Positions 5,120-33,802 of a stretch of DNA of 38,907 nt are shown one piece after another (the stretch's first letter is position 1; every line of letters begins with the position of its first letter). The translations under genes and the position numbers were made by a program. The DNA comes from a virus. The notes under the pieces were generated by a model, which saw only the letters and a list, made by a program, of their open reading frames with translations, was not told the origin of the DNA and searched no databases. The stretch is from IMG/VR virus record IMGVR_UViG_3300046665_000771, positions 1 to 38,907 of that record, one strand, 5' to 3'.

Positions 5120-5939
5120 AACGTACAAACTCCAGAGTGAACATTTGTTTGCGCGGGATACCGCCCTGCAGCAGCGCGCTCTGCTCTTCGTCGAGGCTCT
5201 TCAGGCACCAGGTGCCCAACACTTCTCCGTAGCCGGTGGTAAGGGTCAGTGGCAGCAACTGGGCACCGATGCTGCGCAGGGTGTCCAGTTGCTTAAGTCC
5301 GCCCTTGAACCCGGGAAAGATTGAGCCTTTGAGTGTCATTTTCTCCTCGCCCATACCGATGGCCTGCTGCGCCGGCCGACGGCTGAGACGCTCTTGCGAG
5401 GCCCAGCGAAACTCCGTCTGCCGGCGTAACTCGTCGAAGGCCGCCGTATCCAGGTTGAAGTAATACGGTTGCGTGTTCGGTTTGAGCGGCTGGATGATCA
5501 ACAGGTGTGGAAACGGTTTAACCGCTTCGGCGAGTGGCGTTTGCGACAGCCCCAGCGCTTCGGTCGGAAAAATGTTCGCCAGTTGCGGACTGACCTTGCC
5601 CGCCACCTGATTGATCGCAGCGCCCGCCTTAGCGGCTTGTTCCTTCAAAACACCCAGTCGCTCGTCAATCTGCGACGCCGCCCGTGAAGCCCGGCTGTAG
5701 GTTTCCACCACAGCGCCGACCTTGGCCTGGGCAGCACCGACACCCCGCATAACCCGCTGCAGCTTTTCCCCTACGCCGTCAGGAATGAACGGCACGTTTT
5801 CAAGTTCAGCGGCTGCACCCGTGATTTCACTGATAGCGCCATTCACCGGCCCGAGCATCCCATCCAAACTACGCCGGCCCGCTTCGCCCGCACTGACCAG
5901 GTATTTGAAACCTGATTGCATCTGCTCCAGGTATTCCAT
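5094..5939 (-). CDS. U: Tail protein U with long N-terminal extension
   Basis: 281 residues. The C-terminal half, from about residue 140 (PHLLIIQPLKPNTQPYYFNL, then RRQTEFRWASQERLSRRPAQQ, LKGSIFPGFKGG, MFTLEFVRYGDD), matches the P2 gpU family, which is normally about 160 residues. The first 130 residues (EITGAAAELENV, VETYSRASRAASQIDERLGVLKEQAAKAGAAINQ) are a helical, probably coiled-coil extension. gpU lies at the head-proximal end of contractile tails. It is 9 nt downstream of the tape-measure gene and overlaps X. Confidence 0.85.
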   Translation of the reverse strand: MEYLEQMQSGFKYLVSAGEAGRRSLDGMLGPVNGAISEITGAAAELENVPFIPDGVGEKLQRVMRGVGAAQAKVGAVVETYSRASRAASQIDERLGVLKEQAAKAGAAINQVAGKVSPQLANIFPTEALGLSQTPLAEAVKPFPHLLIIQPLKPNTQPYYFNLDTAAFDELRRQTEFRWASQERLSRRPAQQAIGMGEEKMTLKGSIFPGFKGGLKQLDTLRSIGAQLLPLTLTTGYGEVLGTWCLKSLDEEQSALLQGGIPRKQMFTLEFVRYGDDLQNV

Positions 5940-5948
5940 GGTCCCTCC

Positions 5949-8900
5949 TTATGTATGGGCATCGTCGTAAAGATTGCGCCGGGCTTCCTGCTGCGCGGCG
6001 TCACTGAGTGCGCGCTGCATCAAAGGCAGCAACTGCTGAACAAACTGCTGCGGATCCTTGGCATCGCCCTCGACCGTGACCGGCATGCTCAGCGAGTAGC
6101 TGAACTTCTGGTCCACCCGTGCCGGGTCTGGCTTGGGTACTGCGGGCGCTTGAATAACGATGTTCGCGGGTTTGGAAGCAGCAGGCGCCGCCAACGAGCG
6201 CGTCACGTCACCCAGCGCGGGTCCCATTGGCATCATCATGGGAGCTACTGACTTCGGTGCTGCAGCAGCGATTAGAGGCTGTCGACGGGTTTGAGTGTCG
6301 ACAATACTGCTTACCGGCGTAGATGCCGCCTGGAACAACGGTCTCGCGACAGGTGGCACGGGAGCGACAGCCGTTCCAATATCTGGCGCAGCAGGTGCCG
6401 TCGAGCGAGTCACGTCACCCAGCGCTGGTCCCATTGGCATCATCATGGGAGCTGCTGGCTTCGGTGCTGCAACAGCGATTAGAGGCTGTCGACGGGGTTG
6501 AGTGTCAACAATACGGTTTACCGGAGTAAACGCCGCCTGGGAAAACGGTTTGGTGACGGGTGACACGGGAGCGACAGCCGTTCCAATATCTGGCACAGCA
6601 GGCGCAGCAGGTGCCGCTTCGACCACAACGGCAGCGGGTTGCCGGACCAAGCTGTTCGCGATAGTCGCCAGACTGGGTACAGCAGGGCCAGGTCTGGGAG
6701 CCAACAGCATCGGCGTAATCGGTGCAGCGGGCTCTTTGGGTTTATCACTGCCAAACATCGACAATCCTGCCCACCCGCCCAGCTGCTGCCCTCCCATGCT
6801 GCCAAGGTAAGCACCCACCATGCCGCCGATGGCTGTGCCTATGATTGGCACCACCGAACCAATAGCCGCGCCAGCAGCGGCGCCCGCCATAGTGCCTGCG
6901 AGTGTCCCCGCAGCTTCACCATAGCCTTGCGCCTTTTCGTCCTGAGTTTCAGCGGTCAGGTAGGTATTGAGCACCATGCTGCCCGCTTCAACCAGGGAGG
7001 CACCTGGAACTGCTTTGACCGCTTTCCCAACCTTACCGACGCCTCCGGCGACCGAGGTCAACATCTGTTTGCCGGGACTCGGCACGACAGGAGGACGAGG
7101 CACTGGAAGAGGCAGTCTGGGCGCCGGTGACGGTGCGGTAACCGGCGGTGGCAAAGTTCTAACAACCGGGCTGCGCGGCGGAACCGAAGATCGCCGTGCT
7201 GCTGCAGACGCCTGCACCGGGCCAACTGGACGAGGTGGCCGTGGCGGGGCGGCTGATCTTCGACGCGACGGTCGAGAAGTAGGCTGGCTTCTGTTCCGCG
7301 GCCGTCCCGGGCGTCTATCACCCATGCCGCCCATGGATGCCATGTTAACGACGAATACACGTCGAACCCCGCCATCCCCACCACCGGCAGATTCAGCTCC
7401 GCCCTCTGCCCCCACAGCATCCTGAATCATCGATACGACATCCAAACCCGTAGCGACTGGATCGAACCCACCGGCCTTCGGATCAGCCCCCTCCTCCAAG
7501 CTCTCCTTACCTCGGACAGCGGCGACGGCTTTCAGTCCTTTCTCAACCACCGACAACGCGGTTCCGGCCTTTCCCTTGACGCCCCCCTCACCGCCCCTTG
7601 CATCCGCATTGGTGACAAAAACCTTCTGTACGCCACCCGTTTTTCCACCCAGACCACCACGGGCCAGGTTGAGCAGCCCCTTGCCGATCTTGAATGTCTG
7701 AAACGCCGCGACCGCCGCGCCAATTGCACCAATAGCCACTGTCGTCCCGCTGACGATTTTCGGGAACTCATTGGCAAGGCCCGCCATGCTGTTTCCAACC
7801 TTGGTCAGACCATCGGCCGCCAAATCGGTGAGAGGCCGCAAGGCATCACCGAGACTGGTCATCGTCGCTTCCATGCTCGATGTCGCAGCGCTCCATTTGG
7901 AGTTGGACGTTTCGCGGGCCTTCGCCGCGTCGGCTTCGATCTTGGCCTTGCCATCGGTCTCCTTGATGGTGGTCATGTTGTCCTTGATCGTGTTGCCGTA
8001 CTTGATCTGCGCGAGCAAGCCGTCACTGGCACTCTGGTCACTGACGATGTTCGCCAAGCCAGCCGCCTGAATCAGCGCGACCATCGCCTGCTCTTCCTCG
8101 GCGCTGCCGTCCTTGGATGCCTTGATCTTGGCCTTGAGCGCCGCAACCTTTTTGGCCGTGGCAGGATCCTGTTTTTGGATCAACTGCTCGCTGAGCATGA
8201 TGAAGGCTTCGACCGGGTTGGACGCCTTACCGCTTTTGGTAGCCGCCAGGATCGAGCCCGCCAGGTCATAACCCTGCTTTGCGAACCGCTCCTGGCTGGT
8301 GCTGCTGATCACTGCGTTGAGCAGGTTGTTCATGTTGGTCGCGGCGGCCGCCGCGTCCTGGGTTTGCGAAAACTGCGACTGCAGGCTCGCACCCAGAAAA
8401 CGCACGGCCTCCGGGCCTTCCATGCCCAGACGCTTGATCGTACCGAGCAGGGCCGGCATGTACTTGGCCATGTCCTTGGGACCGAACGCGCCAATGTCGC
8501 CGGCGGCGGCCACCTGGCCAAGCATAGCGCCCATGTCTTCCTTCTTGACCCCGGCCTCCTTGAAAGCGCTGAACAAGGTGGCGATGGTTTCCGCTTCCAT
8601 GCCCTGGCCGTCGACCAGGTCAGCAATCAGCGGTGCATAGTCCACCGACTCCTCCCAGTCGATACCCTTCTCGATCAAGCCACCGACCGCCCGGGCCAAA
8701 GCCTGCTGGCCCATGCCTTTTTTCGCGGCCACTTCGCTGATTTTATTCGCCATCTGCTGTTCGGCGTCTGTGCCGGCGGTGTGTGCCCATAACGCCATTT
8801 GCCGGATTTGCGTCTGATAGTTGGCCGAAACCTTGGTGGGAATAGCGATTAGCGCAGTGGCGGCCGCCGCCTTCCCCAGCGTGCCAGTAAGCCCCTCTTT

Positions 8901-24968: not shown

Positions 24969-24987
24969 CGCCCTACCCCATAAACGC

Positions 24988-25012
24988 AAAAACCCGGCGC
25001 AATGGCCGGGTT
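24988..25012 (-). terminator. Intrinsic terminator in front of the late operon
   Basis: AACCCGGC/GCCGGGTT stem with 6-nt loop (CATTGC), followed on the minus strand by TTTTT, 20 nt before the holin start. A terminator between the late promoter region and the first late gene is the layout of lambda tR', bypassed by Q. Confidence 0.75.
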
Positions 25013-25495
25013 CAGTGTGGTGGTGTGTCCCGCTGCTTGCGGTCGCACCTATCGAAGATGGGTACTTTTTACAGGTGGATTTTACTGGCAGCAAGCGGGT
25101 TTTAATGCCATGGCGCAATACGGGTGCAATACAGGTATGACGCAGGTGCAACACAGGGACAACGCATTCAATCGGCTATCGCTTCTGGTGCCCTGTCCTG
25201 CCTGTCCCACTATTCAGAATCGAAGTAGGACAGCTACAGCCGCCTAAATTCGGGGCTTTGCCCAACTGTCCTACCTTATTTAACTTTCTCTTGTGTATAG
25301 AGAGAAAGCTAAAAGCACGCGTGCGCGCCATGGGCGCGACTACGTGCCCGCTATGCCCATGTGTGCGTGGGGCGGGTGAAGGTTGGACGGTAGGACAGCC
25401 CAGCAACGGCGCGGCCTGCGCCTGTCCAACTGCGCTAAATGCGAGTCGGACAAGGCCGGACAGTAGGACAGAGGCACGCGAAGTGACGCCGAGGG
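25013..25495. other. Non-coding late control region
   Basis: About 480 nt between the late terminator and the candidate late regulator. It has no convincing gene; a minus-strand frame starting at 25499 (ATGA overlap) encodes repeat-driven low-complexity protein. It contains the GTAGGACAG cluster, an AT-rich patch near 25275-25315 and a GCGC-rich patch near 25317-25375. The late promoter is expected here but I cannot place it. Confidence 0.5.
25193..25471. repeat. Cluster of GTAGGACAG repeats in the late control region
   Basis: The 9-mer GTAGGACAG occurs at 25225-25233, 25390-25398 and 25463-25471, and inverted (CTGTCCTAC) at 25266-25274. Relaxed TGTCC forms lie at 25193, 25202 and 25422. The first exact copy and the inverted copy face each other across 32 nt. 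They lie in the non-coding stretch 25013-25495, which otherwise holds AT-rich and GCGC-rich tracts. Confidence 0.75.
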
Positions 25496-25861
25496 TCATG
25501 CAGCTTTCCCCATCAGCATCCCTTGAATGAACACATGGGCGTCATGGAGTCGCATGTAATAGGTTCTTGAGCTGCAGGCGCAGTGCAACAGCTTCTGCGA
25601 GAGAAAGCTTTCATGGTTGCAGTAGTGCTCCCAAACGACCAGGGCAAGACGGGGCGGCAGGTGCTTCTTGACGATCAGCTCGATATCCACCGATTCATCC
25701 AGCAGCACCCGACTGCCGCGAGTGCCGCGTATCAGCTCACCCTTGCACTCCATCAGCATAGCGATCATGTTGCCGCCACTCGGCCCGCCAGTGTTCTCCG
25801 GCAAAGGCGAATGCAGATCCTGCGCCCACAGCTTGAGCATCTCGTCGATTCGCTTAATCAA
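25496..25861 (-). CDS. Candidate late regulator (antitermination Q / ArpU-like)
   Basis: 121 residues if started at TTG 25861, which has GAGGAG 7 nt upstream and overlaps the primase stop; ATG 25840 is the alternative. The C-terminal part, LALVVWEHYCNHESFLSQKL then LHCACSSRTYYMRLHDAHVF, looks like a sigma region 4-type helix-turn-helix as in phage Q/ArpU/RinA late regulators. It is the last gene of the Cro-started operon and sits directly before the late region and its terminator, as Q does. Function is inferred from this pattern and position. Confidence 0.55.
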   Translation of the reverse strand: MIKRIDEMLKLWAQDLHSPLPENTGGPSGGNMIAMLMECKGELIRGTRGSRVLLDESVDIELIVKKHLPPRLALVVWEHYCNHESFLSQKLLHCACSSRTYYMRLHDAHVFIQGMLMGKAA

Positions 25862-28070
25862 AGCAAGGCTCCTCCACCACGGTCTGCTGCAATGCAGACC
25901 CGCGCCCCCAAGTCGCCGGCTTCTGATAGGACCAGGGCCGAACACCGCTCTTGGCCAACGCCGGCATACGCTTCTTCCGCCATCCCAGCCGATGCATGAT
26001 CGCCCCGACCCGCATCTGTTCGGGCTTGCCCCAATGGCCGAAGTCCAGCTTCAACGCTTGGCTCAAGATCTCGTTGCCGGTGGCGGTTTCGCCGATCTGC
26101 GACTCCTCCAACCAGGTCAGAATCGGGCCTTCCCACTCATCAACCACAAAGCGCTCGTCCTGGGCCTCCGTGAACATCCGGGTTTCATCCTTGGTCACCC
26201 ACCAGATATCGCCCGCCTCAAAGCAGAACAGCGCCTCAGCCCAAAGCTGGTCGCGGATCTCGCGCAGTTTCTCCAGATCGACCTTGTTACAGAACACTGG
26301 CCAGTAACGACGGTTGCCTGTGGCGTCCTTAAGGTATTCCTCTTGGTTGGTAGTACCCACGAACACACACTGGCGTGGCACGTCGTTCGTTCTGCGGCCG
26401 TAGCTCTCGCGGTAGGTGTCGGTGGACGCCGAAAAAAACTGCTTGGCCTTGGTGCTTTCAGCCTTGTTGAAGCTGTCCAACTCCCCCAGCTCGACTATCC
26501 ACTTGCCACGAATGGCCTGAAAACTGTCCTTGTCGCCGAGGGCAAAGGGCGTGTCCATAAACCACTCGCCGCCGAGGACGCCCATTGCGGTGGATTTGCC
26601 TTCACCCTGCCCGCCTTCGAGGATCATCACCGAGTCGGCCTTACAGCCCGGGCGCATCACACGGGCAACCGCCGAGATCGGCCAGCGCTTTCCGACCTTG
26701 GCCGAGTATTCGGTTGCCTGGACGCCCAACACGTCGGTCAGCCAGGTTTCCAGCCGAGGCACGCGGTCCCATTCCAGCTTCTCCAGGTACTCGCGCACCG
26801 GGTGAAATGCATGGTCGTGGGCAACAACGCTGACCGCTTCGATCACATGGGACGCCTTCACCCGCAAGTTGTACTGCTGCGCGAGCCACTTCATTACCCG
26901 CATGTCATCGATGTCGGCCCAATCGCCGGCACCGCCGCCAAAGGGCGCAGACCGCAGCTTGACGATCTTGGAGCTGAACACGCTGTAACCGATCACGCCG
27001 GCCCAGCGTTCGTCATTGCCCAGGATCAGTTCGACGTTTTGCATGTGCGCGATCAGGGAGCCGTTTTCGGTGCGGGCGAGTTGGTCCCTCCAACCACCAG
27101 CTGCAGGAGGCTTGACCACTGCGAGCACTTGGCGGCGGACGGCCTCCAATCCCTCGGAGACATGCAGGTCGTTGAAGTCGGTCCACTTGATTTCACGCTG
27201 GCCGGAGAAGACTGGTGCGACTACCTGGCCACCAACGATCAGTGCGGCGTTATTAGCCTTTTCTTCGCCTGGGTTCCAAGGATCGCCGTTGGGGCGCTTG
27301 GTCTTCCAGTCGTCGTCACGACAGATAATCAGCGGGCAGCCCGGGAAGCGCTCGCGCATGGCCTTGGAGACCGGCAACAGATTGCCCGCATCGAAGGCGA
27401 TGGCGACCGTCAGCGAGGTCGCCATGTGCAGGCTGGCGCCTGTGGCGTAGCCCTCACACACCAGCACCGGCTCACCCGGCTCAGGGTGCGGGCCGATCAA
27501 ATGAAAGGCGCCCTCTTTCGACATACCGTAGGGCCAGTAGGCCTTGTCACGCCCGGTGTCTTCCTGCTTTGCCGGGAAGATCACCTGTAGGCCAACGACC
27601 TGGTCGCGCACGTTGCACATAGGCACCAAAAATGCGCCGGTACGTGGCGCATAGCGAACCTTGAAGCCGACGATTTGCTTTCGATCCAGGTAGGCGCTCT
27701 TACCCTTCTCGGGCATGCGCTTGAACAGTGCCGCTGCACGGCTGGCCGCTCGACGTGAGGCATTCGCCGCGACCTCGGCAGCCTTGCGCTTGGCCTCTTC
27801 CTGGCGAGCGCGCATGACTTCGCGCTCCTCAGGGCTCATACGTCCAGCCTTGACCTTGATCTTCTGAGACTCACCGGACCGCCAATCACCGAAGCTGCCG
27901 AAGATCAACGTTCCGTTCTTCTCGGTGAGATGCTCGTGGACCACGTACCAGCCGTTTTTTTCCTTGCCCTTATCCTGGGAGGTTTTGCAACGGGTCAGCT
28001 TGCCGAACACCAAGGGTTGATCAGGCTCCAAGCCGTAATCAGAGAATTGATTGAGTACCTCATCGAGCAT
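25854..28070 (-). CDS. Replication primase-helicase (Toprim plus VapE ATPase)
   Basis: 738 residues. An N-terminal part with PEKGKSAYLDRKQIVGFKVR and PYGMSKEGAFHLIG is followed by a Toprim domain (about 200-255: VLVCEGYATGASLH with catalytic Glu, then LIICRDDDW). A VapE/SF3-like ATPase follows with Walker A LEGGQGEGKST at about 483-493, Walker B-like WIVELGELDSF and FVGTTNQEEYL. It should start phage replication alone or with host polymerase. It is the main gene of the operon starting at cro; 11-nt overlap with the TraR-like gene. Confidence 0.92.
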   Translation of the reverse strand: MLDEVLNQFSDYGLEPDQPLVFGKLTRCKTSQDKGKEKNGWYVVHEHLTEKNGTLIFGSFGDWRSGESQKIKVKAGRMSPEEREVMRARQEEAKRKAAEVAANASRRAASRAAALFKRMPEKGKSAYLDRKQIVGFKVRYAPRTGAFLVPMCNVRDQVVGLQVIFPAKQEDTGRDKAYWPYGMSKEGAFHLIGPHPEPGEPVLVCEGYATGASLHMATSLTVAIAFDAGNLLPVSKAMRERFPGCPLIICRDDDWKTKRPNGDPWNPGEEKANNAALIVGGQVVAPVFSGQREIKWTDFNDLHVSEGLEAVRRQVLAVVKPPAAGGWRDQLARTENGSLIAHMQNVELILGNDERWAGVIGYSVFSSKIVKLRSAPFGGGAGDWADIDDMRVMKWLAQQYNLRVKASHVIEAVSVVAHDHAFHPVREYLEKLEWDRVPRLETWLTDVLGVQATEYSAKVGKRWPISAVARVMRPGCKADSVMILEGGQGEGKSTAMGVLGGEWFMDTPFALGDKDSFQAIRGKWIVELGELDSFNKAESTKAKQFFSASTDTYRESYGRRTNDVPRQCVFVGTTNQEEYLKDATGNRRYWPVFCNKVDLEKLREIRDQLWAEALFCFEAGDIWWVTKDETRMFTEAQDERFVVDEWEGPILTWLEESQIGETATGNEILSQALKLDFGHWGKPEQMRVGAIMHRLGWRKKRMPALAKSGVRPWSYQKPATWGRGSALQQTVVEEPCFD

Positions 28071-28287
28071 GGCGGGCCTTCCTGGCTTCGTCGATGGACT
28101 GGCATGTCACACACTGGGTGCAACCAGGGATCGCAACACGGCGTGCCAACGGGATCGGCGTGTCGCAGCTTTCACAGAACATGAACGAATGTGCAGCGGT
28201 GGCCGTTTTATTCGCATTGCGCGCTGCAAGGGCCTGATCCATCCGCTCTTGCACCAGGTCGTTGGCAAAATCGATAACGTCAGCCAC
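28060..28287 (-). CDS. TraR/DksA-type C4 zinc-finger protein
   Basis: 75 residues from GTG 28287, with GAGGT 8 nt upstream. A helical N-terminus (VIDFANDLVQERMDQALAA) leads to a zinc finger C-x2-C ... C-x2-C in FCESCDTPIP, IPGCTQCVTC. TraR-like proteins enter the RNA polymerase secondary channel and mimic DksA/ppGpp, so it may bias host transcription during lytic growth. It overlaps both neighbours, CII-like (8 nt) and primase (11 nt). Confidence 0.9.
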   Translation of the reverse strand: MADVIDFANDLVQERMDQALAARNANKTATAAHSFMFCESCDTPIPLARRVAIPGCTQCVTCQSIDEARKARHAR

Positions 28288-28798
28288 GGTCGGTACCTCG
28301 CGTAGTCTGGTTGACGTATTTGGCGCGGTTGAACATCCCCAGCAGCCCCTGAATACCGCGAAACACCTGCAGGCGAATCTCGGCCAGTTCCTGATCGCTG
28401 ACGACACCGTCGCCGATGCTCTTGGCCCACGTATCAGCCAAATCAGCCACCTGCCGGAAGTACGAGGCAATACCCGTGGTGAGGGTCTCGGGCATGTCAC
28501 TGGTATAGGTTTCGGCCAGCTCCTGCCATGTGGTATCGCCGACCAGGGCATGCACTGCATCAAGAATGCGGCGATCCTTGGTCAATTCGAGGATCTCGCC
28601 GAACTCCTGAATGTTCACGGTGTGAGACGGATGGGTAGGAGACAGCTTGTGCTGCAGCGTGGTGGCATTACGGCCTGTGGTGGCAGCGATTGCGGCGGCA
28701 CCGCCGGGATAGTCCCGTGCGGCGTGGTACAGGGCTAATTCGAGCGTCAGGACTTCCCTTTGCGCTCGATCAACACAGCTTAAAGCTATTCGGCTCAT
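28280..28798 (-). CDS. Phage regulatory protein CII family (CP76-type)
   Basis: 172 residues. The N-terminus carries a helix-turn-helix pattern LALYHAARDYPGGAAAIAAT, TGRNATTLQHKLSPTHPSHT. The C-terminal helical half (IASYFRQVADLADTWAKSIG) fits the P2-type CII/CP76 regulator family. It sits in the cro operon where lambda has cII, and is likely to influence the lysis-lysogeny choice. AGGA lies 4 nt before the ATG, unusually close. The structured RNA locus lies on the opposite strand just upstream. Confidence 0.8.
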   Translation of the reverse strand: MSRIALSCVDRAQREVLTLELALYHAARDYPGGAAAIAATTGRNATTLQHKLSPTHPSHTVNIQEFGEILELTKDRRILDAVHALVGDTTWQELAETYTSDMPETLTTGIASYFRQVADLADTWAKSIGDGVVSDQELAEIRLQVFRGIQGLLGMFNRAKYVNQTTRGTDRG

Positions 28799-28880
28799 GG
28801 CATTATTCCTACAAGGTTGCCAGTGCCCCGCGACATGCAGTGGTGGTACATTTGCCGCGTGGCTTGAAAGGGCCCAAAAC

Positions 28881-28981
28881 GCCGGCTAGATCTAGGGATC
28901 GAACCGGCACCGTGCCGAGGCGAACAATCCGTTGTTCACCTCTGGCGCAACAGCTGCCTAATCTGTGGTGGAAAAGGCAGC
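28881..28981 (+). ncRNA. Candidate C4-type antisense RNA
   Basis: Three successive helices lie in about 100 nt. Stem I is GCCGG (28881-28885) with CCGGC (28904-28908). Stem II is GTGCC-AGG-GAACAA, tetraloop TCCG, TTGTTC-CCT-GGCGC (28912-28948). Stem III is GCTGCC (28953-28958) with GGCAGC (28976-28981). A three-stem RNA in a phage immunity region, upstream of a short ORF whose Shine-Dalgarno it can pair with, is the layout of P1/P7 C4 antisense RNA and its prophage relatives. CACCTCT (28937-28943) is complementary to AGAGGTG (29018-29024). Family membership is from recognition, not a covariance search. Confidence 0.6.
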
Positions 28982-28984
28982 AAC

Positions 28985-29004
28985 CCAAGACATCCGTGTC
29001 TTGG
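28985..29004 (+). other. Perfect hairpin with TCCG tetraloop
   Basis: CCAAGACA-TCCG-TGTCTTGG, an 8-bp perfect stem directly after the C4-like RNA. It has the same TCCG loop as stem II. It may be a processing site or 3' boundary of the RNA; there is no T-run, so it is not a terminator. Confidence 0.7.
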
Positions 29005-29007
29005 TAG

Positions 29008-29059
29008 CGCGGTAAAGAGAGGTGGTTAGCATGTGGTGTGCACGCAACTCTTTATCGCG
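29008..29059 (+). promoter_or_regulatory. Stem-loop presenting a Shine-Dalgarno and ATG
   Basis: CGCGGTAAAGAG (29008-29019) pairs with CTCTTTATCGCG (29048-29059), 12 bp with one G-U. The loop holds AGGTGG and the ATG at 29031. Opening or blocking it, for instance by the C4-like RNA, would control translation of the ORF starting there. Confidence 0.6.
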
Positions 29060-29417
29060 ACCCAGCAGCACTGTGGTGGTGTGTGCCGGGAGAAACTGGG
29101 CGGCCCTTGGGTCGCCTTTTTTCTATCTACGCTGCAGCTTTCTGCGGGGCCGATGCGGTGAGCAACCAGGCGGCATCAAACGCGTTACCCTTCTGCTTTG
29201 CAGCGTTCGCCAAAAGTGCGGCGTAATGGGTTTCACCGGTGTAATCGGTGCGGGGAAGACTGGCAGCCAAGCGCCATTTATTGAGCGCCTGATAGCTCCT
29301 TTCACACACCTTGGCGGCGGCTCCAATGCCGCCTACTGCTTCAAATGCAAACGCGATGGCGTTCGGAAAATCTGCGGGGTCCAACATGGCAACCTCCATT
29401 TATCAACTCACGGTTGA
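29031..29417 (+). CDS. Possible Icd/Ash-like short protein, antisense to cro
   Basis: 128 residues from the ATG at 29031 with GAGAGGTGG 5 nt upstream. It is Cys/Arg/Ser-rich (MWCARNSLSRPSSTVVVCAG, RNWAALGSPFFYLR) and for most of its length is the reverse of cro, so the later part may be open by chance. The start signals are much better than the coding character. By position after the C4-like RNA it corresponds to the icd leader ORF of P1. An intrinsic terminator lies inside its early codons, so it may be only a short attenuation leader. Ends next to the cI operators. Confidence 0.35.
   Translation: MWCARNSLSRPSSTVVVCAGRNWAALGSPFFYLRCSFLRGRCGEQPGGIKRVTLLLCSVRQKCGVMGFTGVIGAGKTGSQAPFIERLIAPFTHLGGGSNAAYCFKCKRDGVRKICGVQHGNLHLSTHG
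29099..29122 (+). terminator. Intrinsic terminator on the plus strand, antisense side of cro
   Basis: GGCGGCCC (29099-29106) pairs with GGGTCGCC (29109-29116), followed by six T. It would stop plus-strand transcription 68 nt into the ORF at 29031 and before cI. It ends 5 nt before the convergent cro stop. Confidence 0.75.
29127..29387 (-). CDS. cro: Cro-like repressor
   Basis: 86 residues from ATG 29387 with GGAGG 5 nt upstream; ATG 29399 would lie upstream of that site and is less likely. Helix-turn-helix segment FEAVGGIGAAAKVCERSYQA, LNKWRLAA as in small Cro/YdaS-type regulators. Divergent from cI across paired operators. Expected to shut off cI and tune the operon with CII, TraR and primase. 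The promoter is likely TTGCGC-16-TAATAT on the minus strand, overlapping the cro-proximal operator. Confidence 0.82.
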   Translation of the reverse strand: MLDPADFPNAIAFAFEAVGGIGAAAKVCERSYQALNKWRLAASLPRTDYTGETHYAALLANAAKQKGNAFDAAWLLTASAPQKAAA

Positions 29418-29474
29418 TATTAACATCAACTGACTATTGCGCAACCCCTGTGAGAGTATCAACTCATGGTTGAT
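29402..29474. promoter_or_regulatory. CI/Cro operators between cro and cI
   Basis: Two 17-bp palindromes, ATCAACTCACGGTTGAT (29402-29418) and ATCAACTCATGGTTGAT (29458-29474), with a half site ATCAAC at 29425-29430. The first overlaps the cro leader and promoter. The second overlaps the cI start codon. Confidence 0.88.
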
Positions 29475-30191
29475 AAGAACGAGCTACGGGCAGCTTTCTC
29501 GGCGCGCCTTCACGAAGCACTTGACGATGCCGGTGTACGCACCCGGGGTCGTGGTGTGGATATTCATAATCATCTGAAAGCCGCCGGCGTGACCAAAAGC
29601 ACTCAGGCGGTCAGCAAGTGGCTAAATGGCGATGCCATAGCTGAGGCTGACAGCATGGTTGTACTATGCTCGTGGCTAAAGGTACGGAGGGAGTGGCTCG
29701 AATATGGCGTACTGCCTAAAGAGCAAACGGGAGACAGCAACGTCCACCAGTTTGGCACGAGGGACGAGAGTAACGTCAGCGAGGTGACGCGGCGTTTTGG
29801 AAAAGTGCCGTTGATCTCATGGGTTCAAGCAGGGGCTTGGTGTGAAGCAAATTTTGATCAGCACGACGGTGAGTCATGGCTATCCTGTCCGGTGCCCATC
29901 AGTGGAAGCGGCTATGCACTGAAAGTATTAGGGGATTCAATGACAAATCCTGGACCAGGTCGCAGCTACCCTACCGGATGCATAATATTTGTAGACCCCG
30001 AAGCAGAAGCCAAAACGGGTGACCGCGTTATTGCGAGGGTTCCACGCACCAACGAAGCCACATTCAAAATACTCGTTGAGGATGCTGGGCGTCAGTATTT
30101 AAGGCCTATAAATCCGCAATATCCAGTCATTGATATTACGGAGGAAACGCACATCTGTGGAAAGGTTGTAGGTTCATTCATCCCTGAATGA
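29466..30191 (+). CDS. cI: CI repressor, LexA-like self-cleaving
   Basis: 241 residues. The N-terminal domain has a helix-turn-helix (HNHLKAAGVTKSTQAVSKWL, about 34-54). The S24 protease domain has cleavage site Ala122-Gly123 in WVQAGAW, nucleophile Ser158 in LGDSM and base Lys201 in ATFKIL. It keeps the lysogen by binding the ATCAAC-N5-GGTTGAT operators and is expected to cleave itself with RecA after DNA damage. The ATG at 29466 lies inside an operator with no good Shine-Dalgarno, as in the leaderless lambda PRM transcript. Convergent with the KAP gene. Confidence 0.93.
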   Translation: MVDKNELRAAFSARLHEALDDAGVRTRGRGVDIHNHLKAAGVTKSTQAVSKWLNGDAIAEADSMVVLCSWLKVRREWLEYGVLPKEQTGDSNVHQFGTRDESNVSEVTRRFGKVPLISWVQAGAWCEANFDQHDGESWLSCPVPISGSGYALKVLGDSMTNPGPGRSYPTGCIIFVDPEAEAKTGDRVIARVPRTNEATFKILVEDAGRQYLRPINPQYPVIDITEETHICGKVVGSFIPE

Positions 30192-30221: not shown

Positions 30222-31613
30222 TCAGTCAAACGCAAAGTTCGATAGCATGTCTATACGATTTAAAATATTCTCTAGGGAAACACCATTACCATACCGACCA
30301 TGATGCTGAACTAACTCTAAGACCCTAGCTGCGTACCTCAAATTTAGATCTGAAATTTGGACAAGATCAACTACCTTATTGAGTTTGGCAATCCTACTAT
30401 CAGCCCAAGCCTTAGAAGTACGCGACTTCCCTGAAATAATCAGTGCCTCTATGTATTGCCTAGCCCAAATAGCGTGATCGTCCTCACCAGAAATCACAAT
30501 CTCTAAGACGGCTAAAATCTCATCACCACCAACTCCTGACTTAGAGAAGTTAGCGTACACAGTGGAATGATTATCTTTAATATACAGCAAGAAAACCACA
30601 AACTCCGGATAGAAATACTGACTACTTGGAACAGTCAACGAAATCAATTTAATTTTGGAAAGCAACTGCTCAACACCCCTGAGCGACATCTGCCGCCCAA
30701 CTATATTCAAAGTGCTCAGCAAGTGCTCTCTATCGTAGGCAGTATCACCCGTATTTCTAGCTGCAAAATAATCATCCAACTCAAGATGAGCGAATAAGTG
30801 ATTAATGAAAAAATTCACTCCTACAGAAGGCAAAGTAAACTCAACATCAATAAAGCGCTTTAGATACCCCAAAGCATCAAATTCAGCCCCATAAACAGCT
30901 TTGACACTATGGGCAAGTTGGACTTTATCGAGCGCCAGTACAAACACCAACCCCTCAATATCCAACAAATGCTTAATTCGCTCTAATAACTCGATTGCAT
31001 ACGTAGGCCGGCACCGATCAAGCTCATCTACAAACACATAAAGTTTCTCTGCTTCTCCATCACCACCCTTTAAAACTTCAGCAACATTCTTCTTGAACTC
31101 GGCAATAGCCTTCTTGTTATTTGCGTAAGCCCCTATAACATCTTTTGAAAGAGCCTCCGTAAACTTTGCAGCCTCATCCTCCACAAGCTTATCGGTATCT
31201 AAAAGCCCAGCAGTCGCGATTTTTACCGCAACAGGGATTCCTCTTCTCAGAATATGAGCTCCCGCCTCCTTTGCTTTGGTCCAGGCTTGAGTCTTTTTAG
31301 AATTACCCTTTAAAAAACCTGACAACCCCGAGTTCATCTCACCAAGAAATGCCAACAAAGGATCCACAGCAAAGTCAGTTTCCCATGCGCTAAAGTAAAC
31401 TGACTTGCAGCTTGAAGAATTTAAATTTGCATGAAGCATTTTCAGATAAGTTGTTTTACCTGCCCCCCAAGGGGCATTCACAGAGAGCACAATAGGTGAT
31501 GAAACGTTCTCCAGTAGTCGAGTTAGATTTTCAACACTATCACGTCGATTCAATTTATCGTTCTGGAATATATCATCTTGGGGAATTTCCAAAGTAGCAC
31601 TTTTAAGTTTCAA
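30222..31613 (-). CDS. KAP-family P-loop NTPase, probable phage-exclusion moron
   Basis: 463 residues. Walker A APWGAGKTT at 47-55, an aromatic FSAWETD typical of KAP proteins at 74-80, and Walker B LYVFVDELDRCRP at 191-203. A weakly hydrophobic segment GIPVAVKIATAGLL lies between them; the C-terminus is helical. KAP NTPases (for example PifA, which blocks T7) are membrane-linked and often act in phage exclusion. The gene starts with TTG at 31613 behind GAGGGA and is clearly AT-richer than its neighbours. It lies next to cI, where lambda keeps rex, but on the opposite strand with its own upstream region. Confidence 0.85.
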   Translation of the reverse strand: MKLKSATLEIPQDDIFQNDKLNRRDSVENLTRLLENVSSPIVLSVNAPWGAGKTTYLKMLHANLNSSSCKSVYFSAWETDFAVDPLLAFLGEMNSGLSGFLKGNSKKTQAWTKAKEAGAHILRRGIPVAVKIATAGLLDTDKLVEDEAAKFTEALSKDVIGAYANNKKAIAEFKKNVAEVLKGGDGEAEKLYVFVDELDRCRPTYAIELLERIKHLLDIEGLVFVLALDKVQLAHSVKAVYGAEFDALGYLKRFIDVEFTLPSVGVNFFINHLFAHLELDDYFAARNTGDTAYDREHLLSTLNIVGRQMSLRGVEQLLSKIKLISLTVPSSQYFYPEFVVFLLYIKDNHSTVYANFSKSGVGGDEILAVLEIVISGEDDHAIWARQYIEALIISGKSRTSKAWADSRIAKLNKVVDLVQISDLNLRYAARVLELVQHHGRYGNGVSLENILNRIDMLSNFAFD

Positions 31614-31781: not shown

Positions 31782-31816
31782 AACCTCACTCTTCCACCAC
31801 AGAGCGAGGCAACACC

Positions 31817-31993
31817 ATGCACACCACAGCCACCCTGCACGTCCACCCGGCCGTTGCTAACCCCTTCCGCATCTTCGAGATTCGCCGCCTAGCGCAAGAT
31901 TGCGGGTGCACCTTCATCGCATCCAAACCCAAGCTGAAAGAGCGCACCACACCCGCACCGTTCGATCCTAACGGCGGAGGGCACGCAGCATGA
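31817..31993 (+). CDS. Small hypothetical protein, first gene of the plus-strand early operon
   Basis: 58 residues, short enough to be missed by length filters. It reads MHTTATLHVHPAVANPFRIF, EIRRLAQDCGCTFIASKPKL and KERTTPAPFDPNGGGHAA. GAGG precedes the ATG and the stop overlaps the next start (ATGA), so it is translationally coupled. A CGC pair might bind metal, but no function is recognised. Confidence 0.7.
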   Translation: MHTTATLHVHPAVANPFRIFEIRRLAQDCGCTFIASKPKLKERTTPAPFDPNGGGHAA

Positions 31994-33347: not shown

Positions 33348-33403
33348 GGCCAGTAACCCCCTACGGCTGCCACCACCAGCCAACAACACAAGGAGCACAC
33401 CAC

Positions 33404-33802
33404 ATGACTGCAATTCAAATATACGCACTGATCAGCATCGTTATCGCGCTTGGGATCCTCTACTGGGTCGGCTACAAGGGCGGCTTAACGGATGGTCGAG
33501 CCGAGGGCTATGAGGATGGCCATGTTCAGGGCTTTATGGAAGGGATGGACCAGGGCGAGTCAGCAAGCGCTACCGAACTTGAGCAAGTCACCGAACGATG
33601 CCGGCGCCTGCAACTTATCTTGGATCTTCAACCACAAGATCGGCTCACCCTGTTATCCATCGCCGAAAAGCTCAAGCTTGCGGCTGACACCTTCCGAGCA
33701 GTGAGATCCGAGAGCCAGGCAACGCAAGCACTAGCCTTGCGCGACAAGGCTCTGAGCATGGCTGCCCTGATGGATCCGTTCACGCTGGAGGATGCAGCAT
33801 GA
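33404..33802 (+). CDS. Hypothetical membrane-anchored protein
   Basis: 132 residues. An N-terminal membrane segment (QIYALISIVIALGILYWVGY, about 4-23) is followed by a Gly/Asp/Glu-rich stretch with repeated xG motifs (GRAEGYEDGHVQGFMEGMDQ) and then a helical region (LTLLSIAEKLKLAADTFRAV). AAGGAG lies upstream. Not recognised; the anchor and helix could place it at the inner membrane during early infection. Overlaps the HD gene by 4 nt. Confidence 0.72.
   Translation: MTAIQIYALISIVIALGILYWVGYKGGLTDGRAEGYEDGHVQGFMEGMDQGESASATELEQVTERCRRLQLILDLQPQDRLTLLSIAEKLKLAADTFRAVRSESQATQALALRDKALSMAALMDPFTLEDAA

Follow-up and report, generated by a model that had tools for sequence, protein, structure and literature searches.

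Locus and Gene Order

Which RNA is encoded in the gap between the CII gene and the cro-like gene of this virus, and on which mRNAs might it act? The DNA analyzed (the window, 38,907 nt) comprises positions 1-38,907 of the IMG/VR virus record IMGVR_UViG_3300046665_000771, and its relatives are Pseudomonas prophages. A sequence-only reading had proposed that 28881-29004 of the plus strand encodes a C4-like antisense RNA that is directed against a Shine-Dalgarno (SD) sequence on its own transcript. The surroundings of the gap are organized as follows:

28280-28798, minus strand: CII-family activator (Pfam Phage_CP76, PF06892; phrog_101)
Gap between the CII gene and the cro-like gene, 328 nt: holds the predicted structured RNA
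29127-29399, minus strand: cro-like gene (weak PHROG/NCBIfam matches and position)
29466-30191, plus strand: cI-like repressor, peptidase S24 (domain and PHROG matches)
30222-31613, minus strand: KAP-family P-loop NTPase

As an insertion that separates cI from the opposite early operon, the KAP NTPase gene is accessory by position and possibly defence-related. The opposite early operon is located on the plus strand. Its first gene encodes 58 aa and starts at 31817 (T1). Further genes of the operon are one with a KilAC/ANT domain, one that is PrtN/excisionase-like, one of 132 aa at 33404 (T2) and one for a cytosine methylase. On the minus strand, an ORF of 149 aa (25496-25945, phrog_4300) occupies the position of a late antiterminator, and the gene found in its place in Halomonas phage H4907 is annotated as an antitermination protein.

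The Gap Encodes a Predicted RNA with a Conserved Structure

Fold prediction yielded four consecutive hairpins (H1-H4) on the plus strand at 28881-29004, as the sequence-only reading had described, and two of them, H2 and H4, indeed carry the same UCCG loop. The fold of 28860-29130 had an energy of -122.3 kcal/mol (z = -4.5 versus shuffles). In 38 diverse relatives two-sided changes were found at 16 pairs, compared with a mean of 9.0 after shuffling, and none of the 500 shuffles was as high. In the same relatives the covariation score was 0.134 versus 0.079, and the predicted structure outscored every slid register. The fold is thus real and more than a product of chance. The inner part of H1 was misaligned in the A2 alignment (20% paired), and its backing comes from earlier alignments only.

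The four helices turned out to be part of a longer unit, for which the borders 28881 and 29004 are too short. The whole gap could be aligned in more than 140 loci, and the conserved unit extends from an inverted repeat and a promoter-like element (28798-28853) through an intrinsic terminator (29098-29122). The parts are:

28798-28822: inverted repeat TGGCATTA-N12-TGCCA, candidate CII site; half-site centres at 28800 and 28820, 20 bp apart
28845-28853, plus strand: putative extended -10 element TGNTACATT (TGGTACATT in the window), the -10 itself at 28848-28853; read from the sequence
28858-29122, plus strand: predicted sRNA of about 265 nt (promoter-like element, conserved multi-hairpin fold and terminator)
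28881-28908, plus strand: hairpin H1 (fold and alignment)
28912-28948, plus strand: hairpin H2 with UCCG loop; several pairs changed from A-U to G-C
28953-28981, plus strand: hairpin H3 with the loop seed UCUGUGGUGGAA at 28962-28973
28985-29004, plus strand: hairpin H4 with UCCG loop; closing pair changed from A-U to U-A
29008-29059, plus strand: long hairpin H5 with the apical-loop seed CAUGUGGUGUGC at 29030-29041
29061-29090, plus strand: hairpin H6 with a third GUGGUG loop, CACUGUGGUGGUGUG (fold and alignment)
29098-29122, plus strand: intrinsic terminator GGGCGGCCC-TTG-GGTCGCC followed by a T run; ends just before the stop codon of the cro-like gene

The most conserved runs include TGGCATTA and TTGCCAGTGCC of the inverted repeat. 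TACATTTG (28847-28854, in the extended -10) and TCTGTGGT in the H3 loop were invariant across the relatives, the H5 loop GCATGTGGTGTGC was identical in 146 of the 154 loci with a readable loop, and the terminator stem and the T tract were kept. Near-identical loops of the GUGGUG type are present in three hairpins, i.e., H3, H5 and H6. At two loci (L158 and L159, about 5400-6003) the unit of inverted repeat, extended -10 and hairpins is duplicated in tandem; the distal copy lacks a CII start codon, yet it retains the inverted repeat and the -10. Because the promoter-like element, the hairpins and the terminator form a conserved and duplicated unit, the RNA is most likely a discrete plus-strand transcript of about 265 nt, with a putative start at about 28858.

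The minus strand also folds, and the mismatches that separate A-U from G-C states in H2 and H4 (28912-29004) are mostly A.C on the plus strand, which corresponds to G.U on the minus strand. Therefore the lytic-operon transcript may fold as well. It is nevertheless very improbable that the functional fold serves the cro-CII transcript as a leader or for anti-termination, because only the plus strand has the invariant G.U pairs of H0, H2, H3, H5 and the terminator, the terminator and the extended -10 are located on that strand, and the covariation of the loops with plus-strand mRNAs described below needs a plus-strand RNA as antisense partner.

Two further candidates were rejected. The short ORF antisense to cro that had been pointed out before is present, but in many relatives it is cut to 7 codons. 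Its peptide (MWCAR...RNWAALGSPFF) had no Pfam/NCBIfam match and no convincing phage match; the 7-codon form is that of the syringae-type clade, and the conserved codons underlie the hairpins, the H5 seed and the terminator. A tRNA or tmRNA was not found in spite of a T-arm-like GGTTCGATCCC on the antisense strand.

The RNA Does Not Belong to the C4 Family

The proposed C4 reading, in which the RNA would, like that of P1/P7, be directed in cis at the SD 29018-29024, draws on the presence of several hairpins and on a 7-nt complementarity, over a distance of 75 nt in the window, between CACCTCT (28937-28943) and AGAGGTG (29018-29024). The complementarity exists, but it is not kept. Among 71 non-redundant relatives that were scored for it, 7 of 7 pairs were intact in only 12, and 35 had at most 4 pairs; this SD is therefore not the conserved target. 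In addition, the downstream ORF is often shortened. The C4 model RF01695 had no match in the window, neither at the gathering score nor at E<=10, and a Rfam covariance search of 28700-29200 at E<=10 returned only a CRISPR repeat family at chance level. The negative result is meaningful because the same model detected true C4 elements in two relatives: over 20 related records there were two matches, with 87.2 and 63.4 bits, both away from this locus. The true elements are found in L082 (1501-1586) and L083 (527-611), and one of them adjoins a possible host flank.

The genes downstream also differ from the P1/P7 arrangement. On the plus strand the RNA is followed by the terminator, the antisense of cro and then cI, and no icd or ant gene is present on the transcript. 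The idea of an antirepressor operon survives in so far as the opposite operon contains the KilAC/ANT-domain gene, but the pairing involves other genes of that operon. A C4 RNA acting in cis can thus practically be dismissed. What held up of the proposal was the kind of molecule, an antisense RNA directed at translation starts, while family and cis target did not; the conserved targets are T1 and T2, in trans.

A CII-Type Promoter Is Likely to Drive the sRNA

The perfect inverted repeat occurs at 28798-28822 and at one other place in the window, 25086-25110. Nearly all relatives have the repeat at these two positions and nowhere else, and Pseudomonas phage Haddon and Halomonas phage H4907 show the two-site pattern as well. 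By its name and description, the Pfam family of the CII in the window (PF06892) is the one to which the CII of phage 186 belongs. The candidate promoter is located between the cro-like gene and the CII gene and is convergent with the lytic promoter. According to a study on phage 186, the halves of the inverted repeat to which its CII binds are at -38 and -58 of pE, a distance of two turns (PMC6593788). The half-sites of the repeat in the window would be centred at about -58 and about -38, positions that depend on the inferred start at 28858. Because the repeat has the geometry of 186 pE and the two-site pattern is found in nearly all relatives, activation of the sRNA promoter by CII is likely. 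A sigma-54 promoter at 28840 was also considered, but only the minimal TGG-N9-TGC fits by eye, and the extended -10 was preferred.

Position and inferred CII site would also fit an establishment transcript of the pE/pRE type of which this RNA is the leader; the transcript would serve cI, the gene downstream in the same direction, and the folds and the terminator would tune the read-through. We regard this as quite unlikely, since a strong, conserved terminator separates the RNA from cI and since the trans covariation requires an antisense function. Partial read-through might occur alongside.

The Conserved Loops Are Complementary to Two Distant Translation Starts

The loops of H3 and H5 match sites in the opposite early operon, at distances of 2.8 kb (T1) and 4.4 kb (T2) from the element:

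31786-31816, plus strand: hairpin CCTCACTCTTCCACCACAGAGCGAGG in the T1 leader; its loop (31792-31803) is the site matched by H3
31817-31993, plus strand: T1, first gene of the operon, 58 aa, phrog_35204
33395-33406, plus strand: T2 site GCACACCACATG, directly 3' of the SD AAGGAG and including the start codon
33404-33802, plus strand: T2, 132 aa with an N-terminal hydrophobic segment, phrog_28176

The H3 loop (28962-28973) is complementary to the T1 leader TTCCACCACAGA (31792-31803) at 12 of 12 positions. The H5 loop (29030-29041) is complementary to 33395-33406 of T2, again at 12 of 12 positions and across the start codon, and it has also a perfect 11-nt complement in T1 codons 1-4 (31818-31828). 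At T2 the pairing takes in the spacer and the start codon and reaches up to the SD, while at T1 the first codons and the leader loop beside the SD are paired. The T2 site was identical in 105 of 132 T2 homologues.

When the duplex energies were calculated for 363 candidate starts in the window, T2 was the lowest and T1 the eighth, so that T1 would not be convincing by this ranking alone. Over all loci, CACCAC between SD and ATG had 301 matches, compared with 67 for the next independent permutation of its letters; CACACC (298 matches) is an overlapping reading of the CACCAC sites. Most of the SD-CACCAC-ATG starts belong to T2 homologues (113 loci). Further ones, for which BLASTP revealed no link to T2, are those of another cro-like gene in 10 loci and of a 160-aa gene in 2; one cluster was the antisense of the element itself and was discounted. 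In L038 and the nine further loci with this other cro-like gene (at about 5435), its start reads GGTACACCACATG, and the sRNA may therefore also target cro in that immunity type.

The leader motif of T1, CTCTTCCACCACAGAG, was kept in more than 100 loci, although the operator/promoter directly upstream is of several unrelated types. Because the motif is constant and its upstream region varies, the motif goes with the sRNA rather than with the immunity type. A supposedly unrelated gene behind the T1 leader in L057 and L110 was dropped as a case, because both genes are homologous to T1 and only their start has diverged.

The sRNA is at the same time complementary to about 265 nt of the CII-carrying transcript, and it shares its general region with regulatory antisense RNAs of other lambda-like phages. 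It could thus be an OOP-like cis-antisense RNA, which by its full complementarity to the cro-CII leader would destabilize the lytic transcript and limit CII. As the sole function this is rather unlikely, because it leaves the conserved loops and their covariation with the distant targets unexplained, but it may act in addition.

Loops and Targets Covary in Trans

The seeds and their targets change together between relatives, clearly for H5-T2 and moderately for H3-T1. With the usual H5 loop, T2 has GCACACCACATG (105 loci). Four loci (L060, L117, L120, L165) have the H5 loop UUUGGUUU (GCATTTGGTTTGC), and in all four T2 has AAACCAAAUG (GCAAACCAAATG). In three of the four the T1 codons are changed as well, to ATGCAAACC. 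The four loci may be one lineage and would then represent a single set of events. Further matched changes were found in L204, with the loop GCATGTGGTTTGC and GTAAACCACATG at T2, and in L214, with the loop TTGGTTTGCTCC and GGAGCAAACCAA at T2; at T1 of L214, the loop GCTCTGTGGTAG is accompanied by CTACCACAGAGC. Good H5-T2 complementarity was lacking in L071, L102 and L208.

Own pairs of H5 and T2 (87 distinct pairs) had a mean run of 11.49, compared with 10.60 (sd 0.10) for swapped pairs, a difference reached in 0 of 20,000 permutations. With the pairs grouped into 16 classes, p was 0.0008; as the permutations ignore shared ancestry, the independent events are fewer than the loci.

For H3-T1 the support is weaker, because the core hardly varies; the permutation of own versus swapped pairs resulted in p = 0.026. 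The L121 clade carries the H3 loop CUCUGUGGUAAG (CTCTGTGGTAAG), and six of the eight leaders found there have CTCTTTACCACAGAG, a form that occurs with no other loop type. In Halomonas phage H4907 both the H3 loop (CCGUGGUGGGGUA) and the leader (TACCCCACCACGG) are changed and match perfectly over 13 nt, and in Pseudomonas phage Haddon the perfect H3-T1 pairing comprises 15 nt. Judged from sequence comparison, pairing of the loops with the distant translation starts is strongly supported.

A Second Terminated RNA at the Late Leader

After the other perfect TGGCATTA-N12-TGCCA repeat (25086-25110) comes a short RNA, RNA2, which has a terminator and precedes the holin gene (repeat and RNA together at 24985-25110, minus strand). 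The sRNA loops have a complement in the RNA2 linker ACACACCACCACAC. Among the 63 unique RNA2 linkers of the relatives, 47 had CACCAC, versus 4 in shuffles, an enrichment. The own H6-RNA2 pairs were no better than swapped pairs (p = 0.98), and a role of RNA2 as a sponge is therefore only speculation. A wider scheme, in which the CII promoter would produce a multi-loop riboregulator (and not, or not only, a repressor mRNA) that shuts the opposite operon, and in which RNA2 as its sponge would complete a two-RNA lysis-lysogeny switch, is offered as a tentative and rather doubtful possibility.

Distribution of the Element

In a strict search with a covariance model built on H3-H5, the element was found in 35 of 199 sampled Pseudomonas species genomes, and all 16 regions taken from this search had a CII homologue in the same stretch. 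It is also present in sequenced isolates, i.e., Pseudomonas phage Haddon and its relatives and Halomonas phage H4907, the CII of which is 42% identical. The phage isolates carrying the element were reached only via the CII protein search; with the intergenic region as DNA query no match was obtained among phage isolates. Rfam 15 has no family for the element, and no description was found in the open literature, a search in which subscription journals were mostly outside the coverage.

Proposed Role of the sRNA

Taken together, the RNA is probably a CII-activated, trans-acting antisense sRNA that lowers the translation of the early operon in Pseudomonas/Halomonas lambda-like prophages. Its transcription would run rightward and converge with the lytic operon. 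The promoter, in the gap between the CII gene and the cro-like gene, is most likely activated by CII, and the RNA would end before cI at a terminator of its own. The H3 loop would pair with the leader hairpin of T1, and the H5 loop with the start codon and the SD-adjacent spacer of T2 as well as with the first four codons of T1. The most likely consequence is that ribosomes are kept from binding, which would reduce expression of the operon. Because the products of the early operon are typical of lytic growth or excision, the sRNA would help to establish or keep lysogeny.

The opposite sign of regulation has also to be considered. The T1 leader hairpin carries GAGCGAGG, a part of the SD, in its 3' arm, and its opening by the sRNA could therefore in principle activate T1. 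Activation by pairing with T1 and T2 is unlikely, since the H5 pairing covers the start codons of both genes and abuts the SD of T2, which is the usual layout for repression. If the proposal of a repressing sRNA is true, it adds a riboregulatory arm to the lysogeny decision of these phages and assigns a regulator to otherwise uncharacterized early-operon genes. Phage trans-acting sRNAs for which several phage targets have been proved comparatively are few, and this one is widespread; the natural variants of loops and targets provide ready-made matched and mismatched pairs.

Comparison with Known Systems

Like the C4 RNA of P1/P7 (RF01695), the sRNA is a phage antisense RNA with several hairpins that displays complementary segments in loops and is directed at translation starts of an early operon, which here also has a KilAC/ANT-domain gene. 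In contrast to C4, it has no covariance match and has a predicted promoter and terminator of its own, its target is in trans in another operon, and at least two starts are met by repeated seeds. P22 sar is comparable to the function proposed for the sRNA, as a phage-encoded RNA that controls early-operon translation, but it pairs with ant only and has no repeated loops. In lambda, paQ is a CII-activated antisense RNA and OOP a short terminated antisense RNA near cII (reviewed in PMC12197685). Both are encoded in cis and have extended complementarity to one gene, whereas the predicted sRNA uses short seeds in trans against other genes.

With 186 pE and lambda pRE the candidate promoter has the position between cro/apl and cII in common, convergent to the lytic promoter, and the CII of 186 belongs to the same Pfam family. 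The half-sites are likewise two turns apart at about -38/-58 (PMC6593788). The difference is in the product: pE of phage 186 drives cI, while the candidate promoter in the window is followed by antisense loops and a terminator before cI.
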